A DNA stretch of 35,034 bases from Bacteroidota bacterium (GTDB lineage: Bacteria > Bacteroidota > Bacteroidia > B-17B0 > Aurantibacillaceae), in assembly GCA_021323535.1 (NCBI GenBank), contig JAJONO010000063.1:1-35034 (forward strand). Reading direction: 5' to 3'. The position numbers and the translations under genes are program-made. The notes under the pieces are model-generated. The model was not told the origin of the DNA. It was given only the letters and a program-made list of their open reading frames with translations, and searched no databases. Below, one piece after another: positions 8,188 to 20,476 of the stretch. How positions within the stretch are numbered: position 1 is the stretch's first letter; every line of letters starts with the position of its first letter.

Positions 8188-8742
8188 TCATCGGCTAATT
8201 TTCAGGGTAAATAATTTGAGACTATAACTTTGATTTTGCCTTTCTTCTCTGGCTTTTGGAGGATTAAATTTAACTATATCCCTTTTTAAGGACATAGATA
8301 ACTCATCAACAATCATTTTTGTCTTATCGGTATTTTCCGAATAGATAATAAATAGCTTTTTAGTATGAGATTGATTCAATAAAATAATTTTCCCCGTTTG
8401 CCAGATTTCAGTACCAATGTTGGTCGGTATTCTTACCATGGAATATTCACTTTTAAGCGTTGCTGCATGAACTGAAACGTATTTAAATTCACTATAAGAA
8501 GCCCACTTGCCAAATCGAAAAAATAAAATCCTATAATATTCCCTATAAAGTTGTTTTTCTGATATAAATTCAATTCCCGTAAAACAAAAAGCAACCGAAA
8601 GCATTAATAAACCAAAAAGACCAATAATCCATTATGGGGTTATTTTTTGAGTTATGAGAGCAGCGCCAAATACACCAAGTAAAACAGAAGCTCCTCTTCC
8701 CGTTAACGTTCCGCGGGAGTATGAAATATTTTTACGTTCCAT
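8188..8742 (-). pseudogene. Membrane-anchored PH-like protein, interrupted by an in-frame stop (left copy)
   Basis: Read from the ATG at 8742, this is a 184-codon gene homologous along its length to the intact gene at 14804-15313. Shared blocks include SYSRGTLTG, GASVLLGVFG, GTEIWQTGKIILLN/GTEVWQTGKIILLN and DIVKFNPPK/EIVKFNPPK. Codon 37 (8634-8632) is TAA where the intact copy has a Leu codon, in the loop between the two N-terminal membrane helices. Everything after it stays open, and an ATG at 8604 could restart inside helix 2. The C-terminus is about 15 residues longer than the paralog. One or two base changes would repair it, so the loss is recent, or the stop is a sequence error. Function is unknown. 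Confidence 0.75.
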
Positions 8743-9232: not shown

Positions 9233-10207
9233 TTGGTCCCCCGATATCTCACCCAAAGTCCTATATTTACTGGTAAGATTTTTTTAGTGTCGCTTAACAT
9301 CATATTCGCTTTCATTTTATCGATTCTTCCTTTAGGTTTTTTACCGCTGATTGGAACTTCAGTCACAAGAGCCTTGTTAGGCGATCTCCGCTTACCACGC
9401 ATTCTTCATTATTTCATCCTCTCTCTTCTTGGCTGCGTTTTATTTTTCGGAAGTTTTGAAAAGCTAAAACAAGGATTAAATATGGATCTTGCTCTGAATT
9501 TCATTCTCCTTTTTATTTGCCTTGTCTACGCCGCTGTATTTGCCATCGTCACCAACAACATCGAAGATCTTGAAGCGGATAAAATCTCAAATATTGATCG
9601 CCCGCTTGTGAAAGGAATCATTGACCGTAAAAAATATTTATGGATTGGGATAGTTTGTCAGATTGTTGCTTTTGCGATTGCCGCGTTAACAGATTTAAAT
9701 ATGCTAATTGGCATTGCGGCAATTTCACTGGGATATTTTGTTTATTCGTGTCAGCCATTTCGTTTAAAGAGAATTCCTTTTCTTTCCAAGTTTATTATTG
9801 GAATCAATTCGTTTTGTGTTGCAGTGTGTGGATTTGTCCTGGCTGGAGGAAACATGTCGGAATTTCCATTGTTATGGGCTATTTACATTCTTGTCCCACT
9901 TGCGCTTAGCGCCAATTTCATAGATCTAAAAGATGTGGAAGGCGATAGAGCCACCGGCATAAAAACTCTTCCTGTGATGTTTGGTGAAACAAAAGCCAGG
10001 CAGCTCATTGTTTTTTTTACAGTGTGTTCTTATGTTATGGCAGCAATTTTACTGAACGTTATGTGGATGTATCCTTTGGTAGCAGGCGCATGTGTGATTC
10101 ATCTCTGGTTATTATTCAGAAGACCCTATAATGAGAAACCCGTATTTTTTGCGTATCTCTTTGCAATATTTGCGCTCAATGTGTTACTTTTATTAAAGAG
10201 CACGTGA
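9233..10207 (+). CDS. UbiA-family prenyltransferase
   Basis: A polytopic membrane prenyltransferase with about eight or nine helices. Both Asp-rich motifs are intact. The first is around N109-IE-D112-LEA-D116, followed by NIDRPLVKG. The second is D231-LK-D234-VEG-D238-RATGIKTLPVMFG. The helix-loop YSCQPFRLKRIPFLSK is also typical. UbiA enzymes transfer a polyprenyl group from its diphosphate (Mg2+ held by the Asp motifs) to an acceptor in the membrane. The acceptor is unknown; menaquinone, heme O, chlorophyll/bacteriochlorophyll and DGGGP-like synthases all share these motifs. The start is uncertain: TTG at 9233 is the most upstream, and GTG at 9287 leaves a better divergent spacer. It is first of four genes coupled by 4-bp overlaps. 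Confidence 0.88.
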   Translation: MVPRYLTQSPIFTGKIFLVSLNIIFAFILSILPLGFLPLIGTSVTRALLGDLRLPRILHYFILSLLGCVLFFGSFEKLKQGLNMDLALNFILLFICLVYAAVFAIVTNNIEDLEADKISNIDRPLVKGIIDRKKYLWIGIVCQIVAFAIAALTDLNMLIGIAAISLGYFVYSCQPFRLKRIPFLSKFIIGINSFCVAVCGFVLAGGNMSEFPLLWAIYILVPLALSANFIDLKDVEGDRATGIKTLPVMFGETKARQLIVFFTVCSYVMAAILLNVMWMYPLVAGACVIHLWLLFRRPYNEKPVFFAYLFAIFALNVLLLLKST

Positions 10208-11211
10208 CCCCTTTAAAAATAATCAGAACAGTTTCCGGAAAATTATTTCTGTTAATGCTTTTTTCCTTTACAGCATTTTCACAGGATAAAATACAAATTA
10301 ATTCTTCCATTGAAAAAGGAATTTCTTTCCTGAAAAAGATCCAGTGTGCCGATGGCGCCATTTGCGATACTTCTAATTCTTTATTCGATGTTTGGGAAAC
10401 CATATCCGCCGCTGAAGCTTTGTATTCTGTGAATAAGGACACGAATGAAATCTGTTTTAAAAAGGCAATGAGTTTCCTTCGCACTAACGAAAATGAAAAA
10501 GGACTGATCTGTCACAATAAAAAATGTAAAGAAGCTTATTGTCTCGAAACAACAGCTGCTTATTTTTTACTGTTGTTACAAACCGGACAAAAAGAAAAGG
10601 TGATGAAGTGCATTCCTTTTATTCTCGATCTTCAGAAAAATACCGGTGAGTGGGAAATAGGAAATCCAGATGTGCGCGAACAAAAATCCTTCCCTTCTGT
10701 AACAGCTTTTATGGTGTGGCTCCTTAATGAAGTTAAACTTAAACCAAAGTATGAAAAAGAAGTGGTGCTGTTTGTGCGAAAGACACAAAACGATACAGGA
10801 CACTGGGGCGCAGCATGGGAATACTATAACATTCCCGCTTATGCCTTATGGCCAATGATGCATCTTAATCGTACAGAGACGAAAAAACAATTAAAGAGCA
10901 CGAACAAGTATATCAGAAAATCTCAAGAGAAAGATGGAAGCTGGGATCATCACAAAAAAGATAATCAACCATCGGCGTCACTCCAAACTGCATTGATGCT
11001 TGATGCGCTTATGACTTATTCTTCGGAGGAGAATACAAAGGCAATAGAGAAAGGTCTTTCGTTTCTTTTAAAAGAGCAGAACAGTAGCGGTAACTGGGAT
11101 GGCGGACAGTTTCCCATTGACAGTAAAAGTTATCTTAAAAAAGAATATGTGTTCGCAACAGCAAGAAGCATAATTATTCTTAACCGGTATCTTCAGATAA
11201 AACAGAAATGA
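10204..11211 (+). CDS. Exported squalene-cyclase-like QW-repeat protein
   Basis: 335 residues starting at a GTG that overlaps the UbiA stop (GTGA). A signal peptide ends near TAFS-Q27. The mature protein has an alpha/alpha-toroid repeat pattern with four clear QW motifs about 46-51 residues apart: QKNTGEW (144), QNDTGHW (195), QEKDGSW (241) and QNSSGNW (292). A degenerate unit near QCADGAI (47) is also visible. This is the prenyltransferase/squalene oxidase repeat of terpene cyclases. The length is about half that of squalene-hopene cyclase, and no class II DxDD catalytic motif is present anywhere. Seven Cys residues lie in the first 136 residues. It could be a periplasmic binding or modified catalytic protein for an isoprenoid, or a distant relative with another ligand. 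Function is inferred from fold and operon only. Confidence 0.7.
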   Translation: MTPLKIIRTVSGKLFLLMLFSFTAFSQDKIQINSSIEKGISFLKKIQCADGAICDTSNSLFDVWETISAAEALYSVNKDTNEICFKKAMSFLRTNENEKGLICHNKKCKEAYCLETTAAYFLLLLQTGQKEKVMKCIPFILDLQKNTGEWEIGNPDVREQKSFPSVTAFMVWLLNEVKLKPKYEKEVVLFVRKTQNDTGHWGAAWEYYNIPAYALWPMMHLNRTETKKQLKSTNKYIRKSQEKDGSWDHHKKDNQPSASLQTALMLDALMTYSSEENTKAIEKGLSFLLKEQNSSGNWDGGQFPIDSKSYLKKEYVFATARSIIILNRYLQIKQK

Positions 11212-12191
11212 AGTACCTTGTTTTTATATTAATCATTGCTCTTTGTTCGTGTAAAGGAAAAAAAGTACTGGAGAAAGAACTGTCACTTTTTCCTGTAAAA
11301 GGAGAAAACAGGATTTATCTCGTGAATAGTATTGCCATAAAGAAAAATGGCGGCCAGGTTCATTTATGCACATTACTACAATTAGAAAGAAAAGGTGATA
11401 AGAACACCGTGAATATATATTCTTCATTTTATGATACAAGAGATACCGCTTTCGCTTTTGGAACGGCTTATTCAGAAGATGTTTTTATAAATGATAAACA
11501 AAACTTCCCGCTTAATTTTATTCTTCATCCGGGAGATTCTGTCAATTATGAGAAAAGTCTGAGTATCGATCGGAAAAGAATAAAGTTAGCCTGTAATATG
11601 ACCGATGATCCTGTAAGAAAAGGTGAAGCGATAAAATTCAGAATGAATCATAAGGGACGACAGCAATATCATTTTCTTCCTATGGATGTGAAATACGGGA
11701 TCAAAAATCTGCATGAAGTTATTTCATCGCGACTTAAAATGACTGGTGGAATTGAGAAAAACAATAACAGTATTTTTATTGGATTTATCCCACAACCTGA
11801 AAAACTGACGAATCTCAAACCCGGCCATTCTCTTGTCTGGCTTGATCTTTTACTGGAAAACAAATATCCTTTCAGCGTACTTTTTGAAATAAGTGAAAAC
11901 AAAACAGAAATCATTGCCTTTAGAGTAACACACCGAAATTGTTACTCAATTGAAATGCCAGAATCTTCTGTGGAAAGCGACTACTCCGGTAAAGCTTATG
12001 ATCTTTCATTTCTTCTTAAAGTTGGTGGCATAGGAGAAGAATGGCTCGTTCAACCAAAAGATTACAGCCAGGAACTTCCCCTAAAGAAAAGCTCTTTCTG
12101 GATGGGCGCGGTTGAAGTGCGCGACAACAAAACAAAAGCTGTTATTGGCACAGGAAATATGTATAACTTCAGCAACAAAACCAGCGATTGA
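11208..12191 (+). CDS. Lipoprotein, possibly CrtC/AttH-like
   Basis: A 327-residue lipoprotein with lipobox LCSC (lipid Cys15). It begins with an ATG overlapping the stop of the QW-repeat gene (ATGA). The body is mostly beta-strand. The C-terminal segment SSFWMGAVEVRDNKTKAVIG, then TGNMYNF, resembles the closing strand of CrtC/AttH lipocalin-like domains (carotenoid 1,2-hydratase group), which typically end with a W-x-GAV, short loop, GxG pattern. The resemblance is by eye and weak, and the rest is not recognised. If correct, it would bind or hydrate a long hydrophobic isoprenoid at the membrane. Location: periplasmic face of the inner membrane or the outer membrane. Its place between two UbiA-related genes supports an isoprenoid link. 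Confidence 0.55.
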   Translation: MKYLVFILIIALCSCKGKKVLEKELSLFPVKGENRIYLVNSIAIKKNGGQVHLCTLLQLERKGDKNTVNIYSSFYDTRDTAFAFGTAYSEDVFINDKQNFPLNFILHPGDSVNYEKSLSIDRKRIKLACNMTDDPVRKGEAIKFRMNHKGRQQYHFLPMDVKYGIKNLHEVISSRLKMTGGIEKNNNSIFIGFIPQPEKLTNLKPGHSLVWLDLLLENKYPFSVLFEISENKTEIIAFRVTHRNCYSIEMPESSVESDYSGKAYDLSFLLKVGGIGEEWLVQPKDYSQELPLKKSSFWMGAVEVRDNKTKAVIGTGNMYNFSNKTSD

Positions 12192-13390
12192 ACAGGTTTC
12201 AGCAAATATTCATCAACATCGTCAACAGGATTGAGAGCAACGATGCGCCTGTAAAACGATATATTTTTCTGTTCTTCGCCATTCTTGTGTTGCGCCTCAC
12301 GCTTGAGTTTTTTTCCAGTCACCGCCTCTTTACTTTTTTTGATGTGATGCATATTGGCCTGTGGTTCATTTTTATTGTGAGTGCGTTCCTTCTCCAGTTG
12401 TATTATTTTTCAGGAGAAGATATTCATAAAGTGATCAAACTCGTCATTACCTGTTTCACGATTGCTTTAACAGCGCCTATCATAGATATTATTGTTTCGT
12501 GGGGACAAGGCGCTAAAATGAATTATCTTTCTGTGAATTCATGGAAGGATGTTGTGTTTGCCTATTTTACAATCGGGGGCTCAAGCCTTACCCGTGGCGC
12601 TACGCTTGGTATCCGTATTGAGATAGTTCTTCTTGTGATAGCCTGCTTCAATTATGTTTACACCAAACGTGGAAGTATTATAAAGGCATTGGTTGCGTCA
12701 CTGATCATTTACACGGTTTTGTTTTTATCTGGAACCATTCCTTTTTTGCTTGGGATTATTGTAAATACGTTTCAATTGCAATATCAGCACGACGATAAAT
12801 CCACTTTACTTTTACTGCTCACGCTCGACCTTATTCTTTTATTCTTTATTATTTCTGCAAGATCAGGCACAAAACTTAAAGAGGCTGCAGCGAATGCTCC
12901 CTGGCTGTTTTCAATATTACCAGTGGCTTTATTTGTTGGCGGGACCCTGCTTGCCAAACAAAATTACCCCGATAACTGGTCGGTTAATCCAACTACTATT
13001 TTCTGGTTTCCTTTGCTAACTGCAATTTATTTTTGCTTCACGTTTTATGTTGGCATCATCAGATCAAAAAATAATTCGGGATTCTCTTCGCAAAACGCGC
13101 TTCTGTTTTTTTTGTTGCTCATCAGCGCCTTGATCTCCACTAACACTTTTTTTTCGGTGAGTTTGTTGTGGGGACTTCTTTTTCTTTTATTTGAAGCCCC
13201 TCTTAAGCTGAACAAAGTTCCTGTACTCAACAGCCTGTTAAAGTCTATGGCATTGCTGGTTTGTGCTTTGATGGGATTTATGACATTTGGCGCCCCTATG
13301 ATAGGTTTTCCGGTTTGGTGCATTCTTGGAATCCTGATGAGCTCTTTTGTCGTATATGAAGGTTTACGATTAATAATCAAAAGAAATTGA
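12188..13390 (+). CDS. Polytopic membrane protein with UbiA-like C-terminal half
   Basis: 400 residues with about ten hydrophobic segments. The start is a TTG overlapping the lipoprotein stop (TTGA). The N-terminal half (1-190) has a membrane domain I do not recognise, with a conspicuous loop GGSSLTRGATLGIRIE. The C-terminal half resembles UbiA: FLLFEAPLKLNKVPVLNSLL then GFMTFG lines up with the YSCQPFRLKRIPFLSKFI then GFVLAGG segment of the first operon gene. The Asp-rich motifs that bind prenyl diphosphate are not evident, so it may be a non-catalytic partner, a transporter-like derivative, or a diverged enzyme. It ends the operon; the next gene has its own promoter. Confidence 0.6.
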   Translation: MNRFQQIFINIVNRIESNDAPVKRYIFLFFAILVLRLTLEFFSSHRLFTFFDVMHIGLWFIFIVSAFLLQLYYFSGEDIHKVIKLVITCFTIALTAPIIDIIVSWGQGAKMNYLSVNSWKDVVFAYFTIGGSSLTRGATLGIRIEIVLLVIACFNYVYTKRGSIIKALVASLIIYTVLFLSGTIPFLLGIIVNTFQLQYQHDDKSTLLLLLTLDLILLFFIISARSGTKLKEAAANAPWLFSILPVALFVGGTLLAKQNYPDNWSVNPTTIFWFPLLTAIYFCFTFYVGIIRSKNNSGFSSQNALLFFLLLISALISTNTFFSVSLLWGLLFLLFEAPLKLNKVPVLNSLLKSMALLVCALMGFMTFGAPMIGFPVWCILGILMSSFVVYEGLRLIIKRN

Positions 13391-13478: not shown

Positions 13479-14762
13479 ATGAAGAAAAATAGAAATACCA
13501 GATTGTTTTTTTTGTTTTTATCATGGGTATTTTGTTTTTCTATAAAAGCACAAACTACTGTTTACAGCGAAACATTCAATAATGGATGCGCTTCTAACTG
13601 TCTGTTGACAGCCTATGGTGGCGGATGGACGGTTGTTGACAATGTTGGAGGAACAACAGGTGGCGCACCAAATAACTGGTTTGTAAGTTGTGCCGAAGAA
13701 GGTATAACACCTCCGGGTTGTGGAAGTTCGTGTGTTGGCGATGCTTGTATGCACATAGGGGCCAATGCCGGTGCTGGGGGTGACATGGGAGCTTCTTTTA
13801 ATGAAACCGGCGCAAACAATGCCACTTACAGGCTTGCACAAACACCATTGATTAATACGACCGGATATTCGGGACTTACATTGCTTTTTGATTTTATTGC
13901 TTATGGAAGTTCTGCCTGTTCTGATGACAGGGCTCAATTGAGATTAAGTACAGACGGTGGCGCCACATGGCCCGCTGGGTATCAGTATTGTCTCACCAGC
14001 GTTTGTTGTGGGGCCTGTAACGGCTACAGCCAGGGGCAATGGACCTTATATACTCTGGCACTGCCGGCAGCTTTTGATAACAATCCAAACGTAAGAGTAG
14101 GTTTTCATTGGAGAAATAATGGAAACGGTTCGGGAACCGATCCTTCTGCTGCAATTGATGATATTCGAATTACATCAACCATTTCGTTACCATTAACACT
14201 CCTTGAATTTACCTGCGCGAAACAAAATAAAGGTGTTAAGCTGAAATGGACAACAGCTTCTGAAATCAACTTTAGCAGATTTGATGTGGAAAGATCAACA
14301 GACGGACTTTCGTTTAAAGCAATTTCTTCGGTACCCGGAAAGGGTTTGGGTGAAGGAAAGAATACTTATAATTCCGACGACAATTCAATGCTGCAGGATG
14401 TTTGTTATTACCGCCTTAAGATGATAGACAGGAATGGCTCATATACTTACTCAAAAATTATTTCGGCAAATGGTGATGTTTTTGGAGGAAACGGAATAAG
14501 CCTTATTTCAAACTCTATCAATAATGATGTGATGAAAGTGATTTTGAATTCATCACATGACGGCGCAGTAACTCTGAATATTTTTGACACGCATGGAAAA
14601 CTTCTGGTTAATCTTAAAGATCAGAAAGTGAAACGGGGAAATAATATTCTGAATGTGGATGTGAACTCCCTTCAGGGTTCGATGTACATCCTCAAGATCA
14701 CTAACGGAAAAGACAATACTTCTTCCAGCGCCATTACAGAGAAATTTGTTAGGACGAAATAA
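13479..14762 (+). CDS. Secreted protein with T9SS type A sorting domain
   Basis: 427 residues. A signal peptide (about 1-25, ending FSIKAQ) is followed by a Cys- and Gly-rich beta domain (about 28-235). Its Cys pairs (NGCASNC, PPGCGSSC, CLTSVCCGAC) and ending DIRITS are typical of a jelly-roll/MAM-like adhesive domain seen in Bacteroidota surface proteins. A middle domain (about 240-330) begins LLEFTCAKQNKGVKLKWTTASE, with FDVERSTDGLSF and YYRLKMIDRNGSYTYS. The C-terminal about 80 residues form the sorting beta-sandwich (NIFDTHGKLL, GSMYILKITNGK, EKFVRTK), recognised and removed by T9SS with attachment to the cell surface. It has its own promoter and is probably an adhesin or surface structural protein. 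Confidence 0.82.
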   Translation: MKKNRNTRLFFLFLSWVFCFSIKAQTTVYSETFNNGCASNCLLTAYGGGWTVVDNVGGTTGGAPNNWFVSCAEEGITPPGCGSSCVGDACMHIGANAGAGGDMGASFNETGANNATYRLAQTPLINTTGYSGLTLLFDFIAYGSSACSDDRAQLRLSTDGGATWPAGYQYCLTSVCCGACNGYSQGQWTLYTLALPAAFDNNPNVRVGFHWRNNGNGSGTDPSAAIDDIRITSTISLPLTLLEFTCAKQNKGVKLKWTTASEINFSRFDVERSTDGLSFKAISSVPGKGLGEGKNTYNSDDNSMLQDVCYYRLKMIDRNGSYTYSKIISANGDVFGGNGISLISNSINNDVMKVILNSSHDGAVTLNIFDTHGKLLVNLKDQKVKRGNNILNVDVNSLQGSMYILKITNGKDNTSSSAITEKFVRTK

Positions 14763-14803: not shown

Positions 14804-15313
14804 TTATTTTTTTCTTCTTTGGCTCTTAGGAGGGTTAAACTTAACAATTTCCATTTCCAGGGAATCAGATAATTCATCGATGATCCTTTTTGTTTTGGTA
14901 GCATCTTCTGAATATACAATGAATAATTTTTTAGTATGGGTCTTATTCAATAAAATGATCTTACCGGTTTGCCAGACTTCTGTTCCAATGTCTGTTGGAA
15001 TTCTTACCATTGAGTATGTACTTTTCAAAGTAATTCCGTGAACAGAAACAAATTTAAAATCATCATAAGAAAGCCACTTACCAAATCTTAAAAATATAAT
15101 CTGGTAATATTCCCTGTAAACTTTTTCTGTGGGATTAAATTCAATTCCTGTTATACAGAAGGCTACTGTTAACATCAGTATTCCAAAGAGGCCAATTATC
15201 CACAATGGTGTTATTATTTGAGTGATTAACGCAATACCAAATACTCCCAATAAAACAGAAGCTCCTGTGCCGGTTAAAGTTCCTCGTGAATATGAAAGTG
15301 AAGTATTTTTCAA
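14804..15313 (-). CDS. Membrane-anchored PH-like protein (intact right copy)
   Basis: 169 residues from a TTG (15313) that lies two bases after the stop of the upstream gene, so translation is likely coupled. Two N-terminal membrane helices (about 17-33 and 38-56) are followed by a compact beta-rich domain (YREYYQIIFLRFGKWLSYDD, FVSVHGITLK, TGKIILLN, KKLFIVYSE) and a terminal helix (TKRIIDELSDSLEMEIVKFN). This order resembles small bacterial membrane proteins with a PH-like domain. It is the intact paralog of the interrupted gene at 8188-8742, and the two share the same N-terminal SYSRGTLTG block. The exact role is unknown. The basic tail SQRRKK is cytoplasmic by the positive-inside rule. Confidence 0.72.
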   Translation of the reverse strand: MKNTSLSYSRGTLTGTGASVLLGVFGIALITQIITPLWIIGLFGILMLTVAFCITGIEFNPTEKVYREYYQIIFLRFGKWLSYDDFKFVSVHGITLKSTYSMVRIPTDIGTEVWQTGKIILLNKTHTKKLFIVYSEDATKTKRIIDELSDSLEMEIVKFNPPKSQRRKK

Positions 15314-19327: not shown

Positions 19328-20476
19328 TCAGTTTACCGAGTAATCTTTAACAATACCATATAACGTATCACGTTCAACAGGAGTGCGGCCAACACCTTTG
19401 ATCAGCTCTACTAATTGTTGTGTACTTAGTTTAGGGGTTTGTTCTTCTGAACCTGCCATGCTGTAAATTTTTGTTGTATCGTCAATTGTACCATCCAGGT
19501 CATCGGTTCCAAAGTTGAGCGATAACTGAGCGGTATTTCTTCCGATCATGGCCCAGTAAGCTTTTATATGCTGAAAATTATCAAGGTAAATTCTTGCAAT
19601 GGCATAATTACGTAAATCTTCGATCACACTCACTTCAGGAACATTGGCCATTTCATTGTCCTTGTTTCTGAACTTAAGCGGAATAAACGCGTTGAAGCCT
19701 TTGGTTTTATCCTGTAATTTTCTGAGACGATCCATATGGTCGATACGGTGCTCGAACGTTTCAATATGTCCGTAAAGCATGGTGGCGTTTGAATGAAGCC
19801 CCATACCGTGCCAGATCTCGTGAATAGAGAGCCATTCTTCGGTGGTACATTTCCCTCCTGCAATTTTATCGCGAATATCCTTGTCAAATATTTCAGCGCC
19901 TCCTCCGGGTAAACTGTCAAGCCCCGCCTCACGCATGATCTTTAAGCCTTCTTCATAGGTCAGTTTTGCTTTTTTGAAAATATAGTGGAATTCAACAGGG
20001 GTAAGGGCCTTGATATGCAAATCAGGGCGATGTTGTTTTATTCTTCTGAATAATTCAGTATAAAAGGCAAGATCCTGTTTAGGAACCACACCGCCGGTAA
20101 TGTGCACTTCGGTAACAGACTGGCCATCGTATTTTTTTATAATATCCAGGATCTGATCAACCGAAAGTTCCCATCCTTGTTCGCGGTTTTTGATAAGACG
20201 CGAATAGGAACAGAAAGCACAGGAATACACGCATACATTGGTTGGTTCAACGTGAAAATTATGGTTGAAGTAAACATAATTACCATTCTTTTTTTCGCGG
20301 ATAAAATTAGCCAGCGTACCAACGAATGCCAGGTCGGCTTCTTTGTAAAGGGTTACACCTTCATCAAAAGTAACGCGTTCGCCGGCGAAGACTTTTTTTG
20401 CAATGGCTTTTAATTTATCAGAGTGATTTGCGCTTAAAAGAAGTTCTGGTGAGAGTGATGCATGGGTTTGAATCAT
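19328..20476 (-). CDS. mqnE: Aminofutalosine synthase MqnE
   Basis: 382-residue radical SAM enzyme of the futalosine menaquinone pathway. It joins the MqnA product (3-[(1-carboxyvinyl)oxy]benzoate) to S-adenosylmethionine to give 6-amino-6-deoxyfutalosine. The CxxxCxxC cluster motif is Cys82, Cys86, Cys89 in NVCVYSCAFCSY. LTPVEFHYIFKKA (158-170) and LDSLPGGGAEIF (186-197) are the MqnE/CofH-type substrate blocks. The C-terminal region has IPLKFRNKDNEM and YWAMIGRNTAQLSLNFGTDD. MqnC is related but lacks this combination, so MqnE is favoured. It heads a minus-strand group with DUF3078, a barrel and the UbiX-type gene; other mqn genes must lie elsewhere. Confidence 0.94.
   Translation of the reverse strand: MIQTHASLSPELLLSANHSDKLKAIAKKVFAGERVTFDEGVTLYKEADLAFVGTLANFIREKKNGNYVYFNHNFHVEPTNVCVYSCAFCSYSRLIKNREQGWELSVDQILDIIKKYDGQSVTEVHITGGVVPKQDLAFYTELFRRIKQHRPDLHIKALTPVEFHYIFKKAKLTYEEGLKIMREAGLDSLPGGGAEIFDKDIRDKIAGGKCTTEEWLSIHEIWHGMGLHSNATMLYGHIETFEHRIDHMDRLRKLQDKTKGFNAFIPLKFRNKDNEMANVPEVSVIEDLRNYAIARIYLDNFQHIKAYWAMIGRNTAQLSLNFGTDDLDGTIDDTTKIYSMAGSEEQTPKLSTQQLVELIKGVGRTPVERDTLYGIVKDYSVN

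Follow-up and report, generated by a model that had tools for sequence, protein, structure and literature searches.

A five-gene envelope island of Bacteroidota joins a UbiA prenyltransferase to an exported cyclase-like protein and may serve one isoprenoid-bearing lipid

Several described systems resemble the locus studied here. Class II terpene cyclases are defined by the motif DxDD, with the middle Asp as the acid (PMC11795633). One of the one-domain members, MstE (merosterolic acid synthase), cyclises geranylgeranylated dihydroxybenzoate (PMC9401909). The CrtC group includes carotenoid hydratases (catalytic residues His239, Trp241, Tyr266, and Asp268; PMC4717167), AttH-type proteins have been proposed for lipid metabolism (PMC2954199), and an AttH-like Diels-Alderase of the same lipocalin group catalyses a cyclisation (PMC8159843). 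We analysed a 35,034-nucleotide (nt) stretch of DNA, "the window," from a Bacteroidota bacterium of the family Aurantibacillaceae (assembly GCA_021323535.1, contig JAJONO010000063.1, positions 1 to 35,034 of the forward strand), which carries a compact set of five genes, g1 to g5 (Table 1). The observations are the gene set and its order, the protein families, the motifs kept and lost, and the selection acting on the genes. From these, we tentatively read the set as a mobile envelope island for one isoprenoid-bearing, meroterpenoid-like lipid whose pathway ends with extracytoplasmic steps (probability of roughly 0.4). The individual parts belong to known families; what is new is the way they are combined, the export of a cyclase-like protein, and a UbiA pair that looks split. 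The gene set was described in no title or abstract start of the open-library literature searched, which leaves most subscription papers outside its coverage.

The five genes were complete and in the same order and on the same strand in all six clusters found: the window (genome G000), L046 (genome G019), L047 (G006), L048 (G026), L049 (G027), and the additional record L091. A preliminary description, made from the letters of the window, had presented the first four genes as one overlapping unit. The overlaps hold, each of the four open reading frames (ORFs) sharing 4 nt with the next, and the gene order is conserved. The conserved unit is larger, however, and includes a fifth gene that had been missed: g5, a cargo protein of the type IX secretion system (T9SS), is the next gene downstream of g4 in 6/6 clusters. 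Four-base overlaps are frequent in operons and carry little weight by themselves; it is the conserved order, not the overlap, that exceeds chance. The gene spacing (g1-g2, g2-g3, g3-g4, and g4-g5) was -4, -4, -4, and +88 nt in the window; +23, -4, -13, and +58 nt in L046; +22, -4, -13, and +58 nt in L047; -4, +10, +2, and +80 nt in L048; -4, +134, 0, and +97 nt in L049 (start codons hand-chosen); and -4, -4, +1, and +30 nt in L091 (from ORF ends). Overlaps between island genes therefore differ among the six clusters, with order and strand constant. The TTG start of g1 is uncertain, as the N termini of its relatives differ in the alignment. A promoter and terminator scan returned fewer sites than in shuffled sequence and nothing usable.

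Table 1. Features of the island and of the repeats that flank it
Feature	Positions in the window	Strand	Remarks
g1, UbiA-family intramembrane prenyltransferase	9233..10207	+	324 amino acids (aa), TTG start, catalytic motifs intact
g1, first Asp motif NNIEDLEAD (NxxxDxxxD)	9554..9580	+	N108, N109, D112, and D116 invariant in 7/7 rows
g1, second Asp motif DLKDVEGD (DLKDxxGD)	9923..9946	+	D231, K233, D234, G237, and D238 invariant in 7/7 rows
g2, exported alpha/alpha toroid with QW repeats, one domain, class II terpene-cyclase-like	10204..11211	+	335 aa, GTG start
g2, signal-peptide-like N-terminal stretch	10204..10281	+	Read by eye; hydrophobic, ends ..SQ or ..AQ, in 6/6 clusters
g2, CHNxKCxxxYCxET stretch (C103, H104, C108, C113, E115)	10510..10551	+	Invariant in 6/6
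g3, lipoprotein with lipocalin domain(s) of the CrtC/AttH type	11208..12191	+	327 aa, ATG start
g4, polytopic membrane protein with a rare N-terminal domain and a UbiA-like half that lacks catalytic motifs	12188..13390	+	400 aa, TTG start
g4, N-terminal domain	12188..12811	+	About 210 residues; G097 is the one place where it was seen beyond genus-type clusters
g5, secreted Cys-rich protein with T9SS sorting tail	13479..14762	+	427 aa
g5, C-terminal T9SS sorting domain	14523..14726	+	PF18962, residues 349-416
Left copy of flanking direct repeat, small membrane-protein gene (ORF 8188-8604)	8241..8726	-	By pairwise similarity
Right copy of flanking direct repeat (ORF 14804-15313, 169 aa)	14811..15297	-	By pairwise similarity

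The island is patchily distributed, which bears out the earlier impression of an accessory stretch. Both g2 and g3 match the same five of 40 genus genomes, the window's own included. In a set of 60 relatives, of which 37 belong to the genus, g4 again matches these five. Matches to g1 occur in 22 of the 40 genus genomes at E <= 0.001, with E < 1e-70 only in the five island carriers; the best E values in the remaining 17 were 2e-12 to 9e-4. Among 395 genomes of the class, g3 matches 17, and E < 1e-80 is reached in five of these genomes (the four genus carriers drawn plus G097). Matches to g4 were found in six of the 395, namely its own genome, three other genus members, G097 from another family, and G352, whose weak match (E 5e-4, seven stops in frame) was dropped as chance. 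Wide conservation of g4 was accordingly set aside in favor of the genus plus one partial relative, G097. A profile of the g4 N-terminal domain matched six of 395 phylum genomes; apart from the window genome, these were five short pieces (E 0.003-0.0085) that were also dropped. A first scan of GTDB genome contigs with g1 returned no relative; a further scan of these contigs gave five loci, L091 among them. The check on gene order that the preliminary description had proposed, carried out in its own phylum and in GTDB genome contigs, thus gave a constant neighborhood in six clusters and a narrow range.

Around the six clusters, four different surroundings were seen: the window has a small membrane-gene repeat, L046 and L047 have a T9SS cargo gene and a sigma-54 gene, L048 and L049 have FecCD transporter genes, and L091 has other genes. 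The exception is an L091 gene (18197-19471) several kilobases off the unit that is 77% identical to a gene in the L049 flank. In the closest pair, L046 and L047, the ratio of nonsynonymous to synonymous substitution rates (dN/dS) was 0.09-0.17 across all five genes (one pair). Synonymous divergence (dS) was 1.7-2.5 or saturated when the window was compared with L046, and saturated for L048 versus L049. The comparisons indicate that the island belongs to the accessory genome and is moved or rearranged as one block. One could argue that the genes have no joint function and merely travel together, as only six complete clusters were found, five of them in one genus and one (L091) unplaced. Order and content nevertheless hold despite the high or saturated dS and the differing surroundings, and three lipid-linked folds sit in one unit, which makes an unrelated set very improbable.

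The first gene was correctly named a UbiA enzyme, as its PF01040 match (E 2e-34) scored 119.5 bits against a cut-off of 34.2. Like DGGGP synthase, chlorophyll synthase, and MqnP of the UbiA superfamily, g1 carries both Asp motifs, which were scored in an alignment of seven rows (six g1 sequences plus a fused protein of G097, described below). It differs from the superfamily's named members in staying under every NCBIfam cut-off among the best 25 of 33 families, in which prenyltransferase, ChlG, and DGGGP synthase models matched best. The window genome encodes three other UbiA proteins. Two of them exceed the cut-off of one model each and look like a ubiA_other/MqnP-like protein and a heme o synthase; the third, under its cut-off, is PRK12872-like. 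Because the three look assigned in this way, g1 is an extra enzyme. The ebo cluster also has a UbiA protein with an intact predicted active site in an unusual operon, which serves metabolite transfer to the periplasm (PMC6282210). Membership of ebo was rejected, as the G097 UbiA protein scored 23.1 bits against the EboC cut-off of 250. EboC, the one ebo protein covered, was also not among the best 25 of 33 families for g1. A 322-aa ORF (L049:11961-12929) that lies about 5 kb from the G027 cluster grouped weakly with g1 (E 0.00065 to the UbiA profile) and is possibly another UbiA-like protein.

The preliminary description had also called g4 UbiA-like. The likeness is moderately supported, and both catalytic motifs have been lost. 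There was no match to g4 in Pfam or NCBIfam, and PF01040 did not match the g4 proteins of the window, L046, L048, L049, or L091. An alignment of g1, the G097 protein, and five g4 sequences showed both Asp motifs gapped or absent in the g4 rows. The C-terminal half of g4 aligned with the g1 profile (hhalign probability 80.7, E 1.3e-5), and in the VIA fold comparison residues 227-395 matched DGGGP synthase 7bpu with Z 10.4 and a root mean square deviation (rmsd) of 3.4 over 157 residues. This value is below the Z of about 13 advised for helical bundles, and the model is of low confidence (predicted local distance difference test [pLDDT] 61). Foldseek with the g4 model gave no match at E <= 0.001 (the UbiA match had E 2.8). 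VIA covers only structures ranked by Foldseek, so a family missing from VIA is not thereby excluded. The N-terminal domain has conserved polar residues, and no solved structure was related to it by sequence at E <= 1. Since the dN/dS of g4 was 0.12 between L046 and L047 (one pair), compared with 0.09-0.17 in the other island genes, g4 is not decaying. The window g4 is without the last ~70 residues present in L046 to L049, and the L091 g4 is also shorter.

The comparison with G097 suggests how such a protein could have arisen. There, a single protein (L053:9277-10812) has a g4-like N terminus joined to an intact UbiA domain. It is 36-40% identical to the six g1 proteins (E 7e-66 to 3e-52) and 24-28% identical to the six g4 proteins (E 3e-19 to 9e-16; 400-431 aligned columns in three and 169-196 in three). 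Because the g4 domain is fused to an intact UbiA in G097, g1 and g4 have the look of two halves of a split pair. The simplest reading of these alignments would be a duplication of a single fused enzyme followed by a split, with g1 keeping catalysis and g4 the extra domain. The pair and the fused protein would then offer a case of an enzyme divided between one partner that is catalytic and one that is inactive, in which the role of the added domain is testable.

The G097 set begins with g5-like genes, followed by a g3-like lipoprotein, an S-adenosylmethionine (SAM) methyltransferase, and the fused UbiA, so that G097 has a prenyltransferase, methyltransferase, and lipocalin set. Three g5-like proteins adjoin its UbiA locus (L053:776-7380). 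An ORF at L053 4730-6166 overlaps the third of these genes in another frame, as if the g5-like gene were broken. Tocopherol synthesis follows a similar plan of prenyltransferase, methyltransferase, and cyclase, which would be matched by the UbiA, the SAM methyltransferase, and the CrtC-type lipocalin of G097. We take this as an analogy only and not as membership. The G097 lipocalin is a lipoprotein, and no tocopherol cyclase model was among the family matches of the L046, L048, and L053 proteins scanned.

For g2, the earlier proposal of a QW-repeat protein with a terpene cyclase fold is supported by Pfam, by profile searches, and by fold comparison of the predicted structure, all of which point to class II cyclases. 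PF13243 matched with E 3.9e-19, and PF00432 and PF13249 were likewise over their cut-offs. In the window genome, PF13243 matched g2 alone (two matches). Profile matches included squalene-hopene cyclase (E 3e-19), 8pak (E 6.6e-10), and MstE (E 0.004-0.007). The predicted structure (pLDDT 83, predicted template modelling score 0.85) gave VIA Z scores of 29.8 to 8pak, 29.0 to squalene-hopene cyclase, and 28.3 to MstE. The best 21 rows (Z 28.0-29.8, 282-297 residues, rmsd 2.9-3.2) were all class II cyclases or 6ij1, which is named a prenylcyclase. Residues 24-333 of g2 thus have the same predicted fold as MstE and the other one-domain class II cyclases (8pak, 8paj, and 6ij1; Z 28-30, rmsd ~3 Å), with 17-20% identity over the aligned part. 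In contrast to that group, g2 has a signal-peptide-like start, an invariant Cys/His stretch, a Glu that may lie near the acid position, and no DxDD. A second one-domain QW protein (361-aa frame) was seen outside the island at G026:C58:79284-79730.

The six g2 sequences share 79 invariant columns. Among these, E115 (in YCxETT) may fall about where class II cyclases have their catalytic Asp. Three comparisons back this register: the top-scoring profile alignment, which is to squalene-hopene cyclase; the best local hhalign alignments (to oxidosqualene cyclases from related genomes); and VIA residue counting to MstE, whose D109 was taken from PDB titles. It is extrapolated by helix order, as the aligned stretches end short of the residue or have only their ends given.

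Unrelated alpha/alpha barrels of sugar epimerases and family GH76 also resembled g2, with VIA Z scores of 22-23, and the predicted fold alone leaves room for a non-terpene ligand. Together with weak, under-cut-off Pfam matches to Pec_lyase and Glyco_hydro_88, these barrels would fit a sugar pathway in which a UbiA-type polyprenyl-phosphate sugar transferase (g1) works together with an exported glycan enzyme (g2). UbiA-type sugar transferases exist in mycobacteria. We consider this pathway improbable, as the best class II cyclases rank above the GH76 and epimerase barrels in the fold comparison and g3 belongs to the lipocalin group.

The preliminary description had called g3 a lipoprotein, which is supported by a lipobox-like Cys near the N terminus that is invariant in six rows and seen in L091 too. 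Its place in the CrtC/AttH lipocalin group was absent from that account and is supported by family and profile matches. Lipocalin_9 (PF17186) was over its cut-off in five of the six members scored (L046, L048, L053, L049, and L091), the window g3 being the one under it; L047 was outside this scoring. CrtC (PF07143) was over its cut-off in L053 only, and the nearest solved structure by profile was AttH (2ich; E 5e-7). Compared with the CrtC/AttH group, g3 is a lipoprotein beside a UbiA, and carotenoid precursors are apparently not made in two host genomes. The squalene/carotenoid entry family SQS_PSY (PF00494) had no match in the window genome (a draft, 97.5% complete) or in G097; of the 12 genomes searched, the other 10 all had a match, and these include four island carriers. 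Polyprenyl synthases were found in 6/6 genomes searched. Because SQS_PSY had no match in these two genomes, squalene and carotenoids seem unnecessary, which points to UbiA-type products. A carotenoid or hopanoid substrate was set aside on the same grounds. The corresponding pathway would have g2 as a squalene-cyclase relative, g3 as a carotenoid hydratase, and g1 as a lycopene-elongase-like UbiA; the family resemblances of g2 and g3 and the PF00494 matches in the four other genus carriers speak for it, and given the two genomes without a match we regard it as scarcely probable. Compared with the ten genus relatives searched, the window genome was alone in having no SQS_PSY match, and the entry enzyme seems absent from this draft assembly.

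The T9SS sorting domain (Por_Secre_tail, PF18962) of g5 scored 28.9 bits against a cut-off of 27, and that of the L091 g5 scored 30.9. Many Cys residues of its Cys-rich domain are conserved among the five genus rows. A G097 relative of g5 has a weak, under-cut-off match to choice_anch_J. The g5 domain was rejected as an island marker, as it occurs in 176 of 395 class genomes. No g1-to-g4 relative was found in 14 regions around g5-like genes from 14 other genomes (hand-chosen, some ending at a contig edge), nor in three further g5-like regions (two of G097 and one of G352).

As the constant downstream gene with many conserved Cys residues, g5 could itself be a substrate, if it or other T9SS cargo received a (cyclised) prenyl group. 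Eukaryotic protein prenyltransferases share the alpha/alpha barrel. They use zinc (PMC13290415), and g2 keeps C103, H104, C108, and C113; the same source reports on NctPC, in which prenylation of a peptide Trp is followed by cyclisation through an MstE-like domain. Such decoration of a protein seems improbable in view of the frequency of the g5 domain outside the island. In addition, UbiA enzymes act on small lipophilic acceptors.

In the envelope pathway that we favor, g1 would, as its family function suggests, work in the inner membrane and transfer a linear polyprenyl chain from a polyprenyl diphosphate to an acceptor that is small and probably aromatic. The catalytically dead g4 may pair with g1 and present or move the product toward the periplasm. 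The exported g2 would take the chain end into its barrel and cyclise it, perhaps with Glu115 as the acid. The g3 lipoprotein might bind, finish, or carry the product to the outer membrane, where g5, surface-displayed via the type IX system, could bind, hold, or use it. We infer the substrate, the direction, catalysis by g2 and g3, and what g4 and g5 do. The preliminary description had suggested that the island makes, binds, or senses an isoprenoid, which is consistent with the UbiA enzyme, the cyclase fold, the lipoprotein, and the constant order. The pathway drawn there has to be amended for the fifth gene, the motif-less g4, and the narrow range. It had been expected to fail if the genes were rarely neighbors or if the QW protein had a non-isoprenoid fold; the order was kept in 6/6 clusters, and the fold was that of class II cyclases. 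A bolder version, a terpenoid surface-decoration system, would have the terpenoid both made and cyclised beyond the cytoplasm: a split UbiA pair (g1 catalytic, g4 inactive and with a presenting domain) would feed an exported, Glu-using class II cyclase, and the lipocalin lipoprotein would take the cyclic terpenoid to a T9SS surface protein, to which it might also be fixed. We consider this version quite unlikely. To our knowledge, class II terpene cyclases and UbiA enzymes face the cytoplasm or the membrane. If true, the pathway would mean that terpenoid tailoring has been moved to the periplasm and cell surface and that Bacteroidota have a new class of envelope lipid.

Several points weigh against the favored pathway. 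No gene for an aromatic acceptor lies within the unit, and we know of no meroterpenoid cyclase that is exported. No DxDD is invariant in the six g2 sequences; forced global alignments put g2 in another register, and the repeats may slip by one unit. Some terpene cyclases matched g2 with VIA Z scores of only 23-25.5, barely above the sugar-enzyme barrels. The L048 g2 is over the cut-off of TED_complement (31.5 versus 22), a complement thioester domain that is a barrel of the same kind. The L091 g2 is under that cut-off (20.5), the family is not listed for the g2 of the window or L049, and SQHop_cyclase_C outscores it in the window, L048, L049, and L091. The window g3 reaches 19.3 bits with Lipocalin_9, under the cut-off of 26.2. 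No g2 relative was found in the G097 regions examined (L053, L104, and L105), so the cyclase step is not in every version. The five cluster records other than the window are metagenome assemblies.

Because g2 is without the canonical acid, a role as a carrier is a serious rival. In that case, g1 would make a prenylated lipid, and g2 and g3 would be binders that shuttle or sense it between the inner membrane, the outer membrane, and g5. The low Lipocalin_9 score of the window g3, the motif-less UbiA-like g4, and the frequent service of lipocalin folds as lipid carriers agree with such a role. The 79 invariant g2 columns and the CHNxKCxxxYCxET stretch beside the presumed active site seem more than a loose carrier needs, and we therefore judge binding without catalysis to be somewhat unlikely.

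The island in the window is bracketed by the direct repeat pair listed in Table 1, the two copies being 75% identical over 488 columns. The repeat may mark the insertion route of the block. The left ORF may be broken, as the similarity extends ~120 bases beyond its start. About 5 kb from the island, on the minus strand (19328-20476), lies a gene for a radical SAM protein with a CofH/MqnC C-terminal region, which perhaps belongs to menaquinone synthesis by the futalosine pathway.

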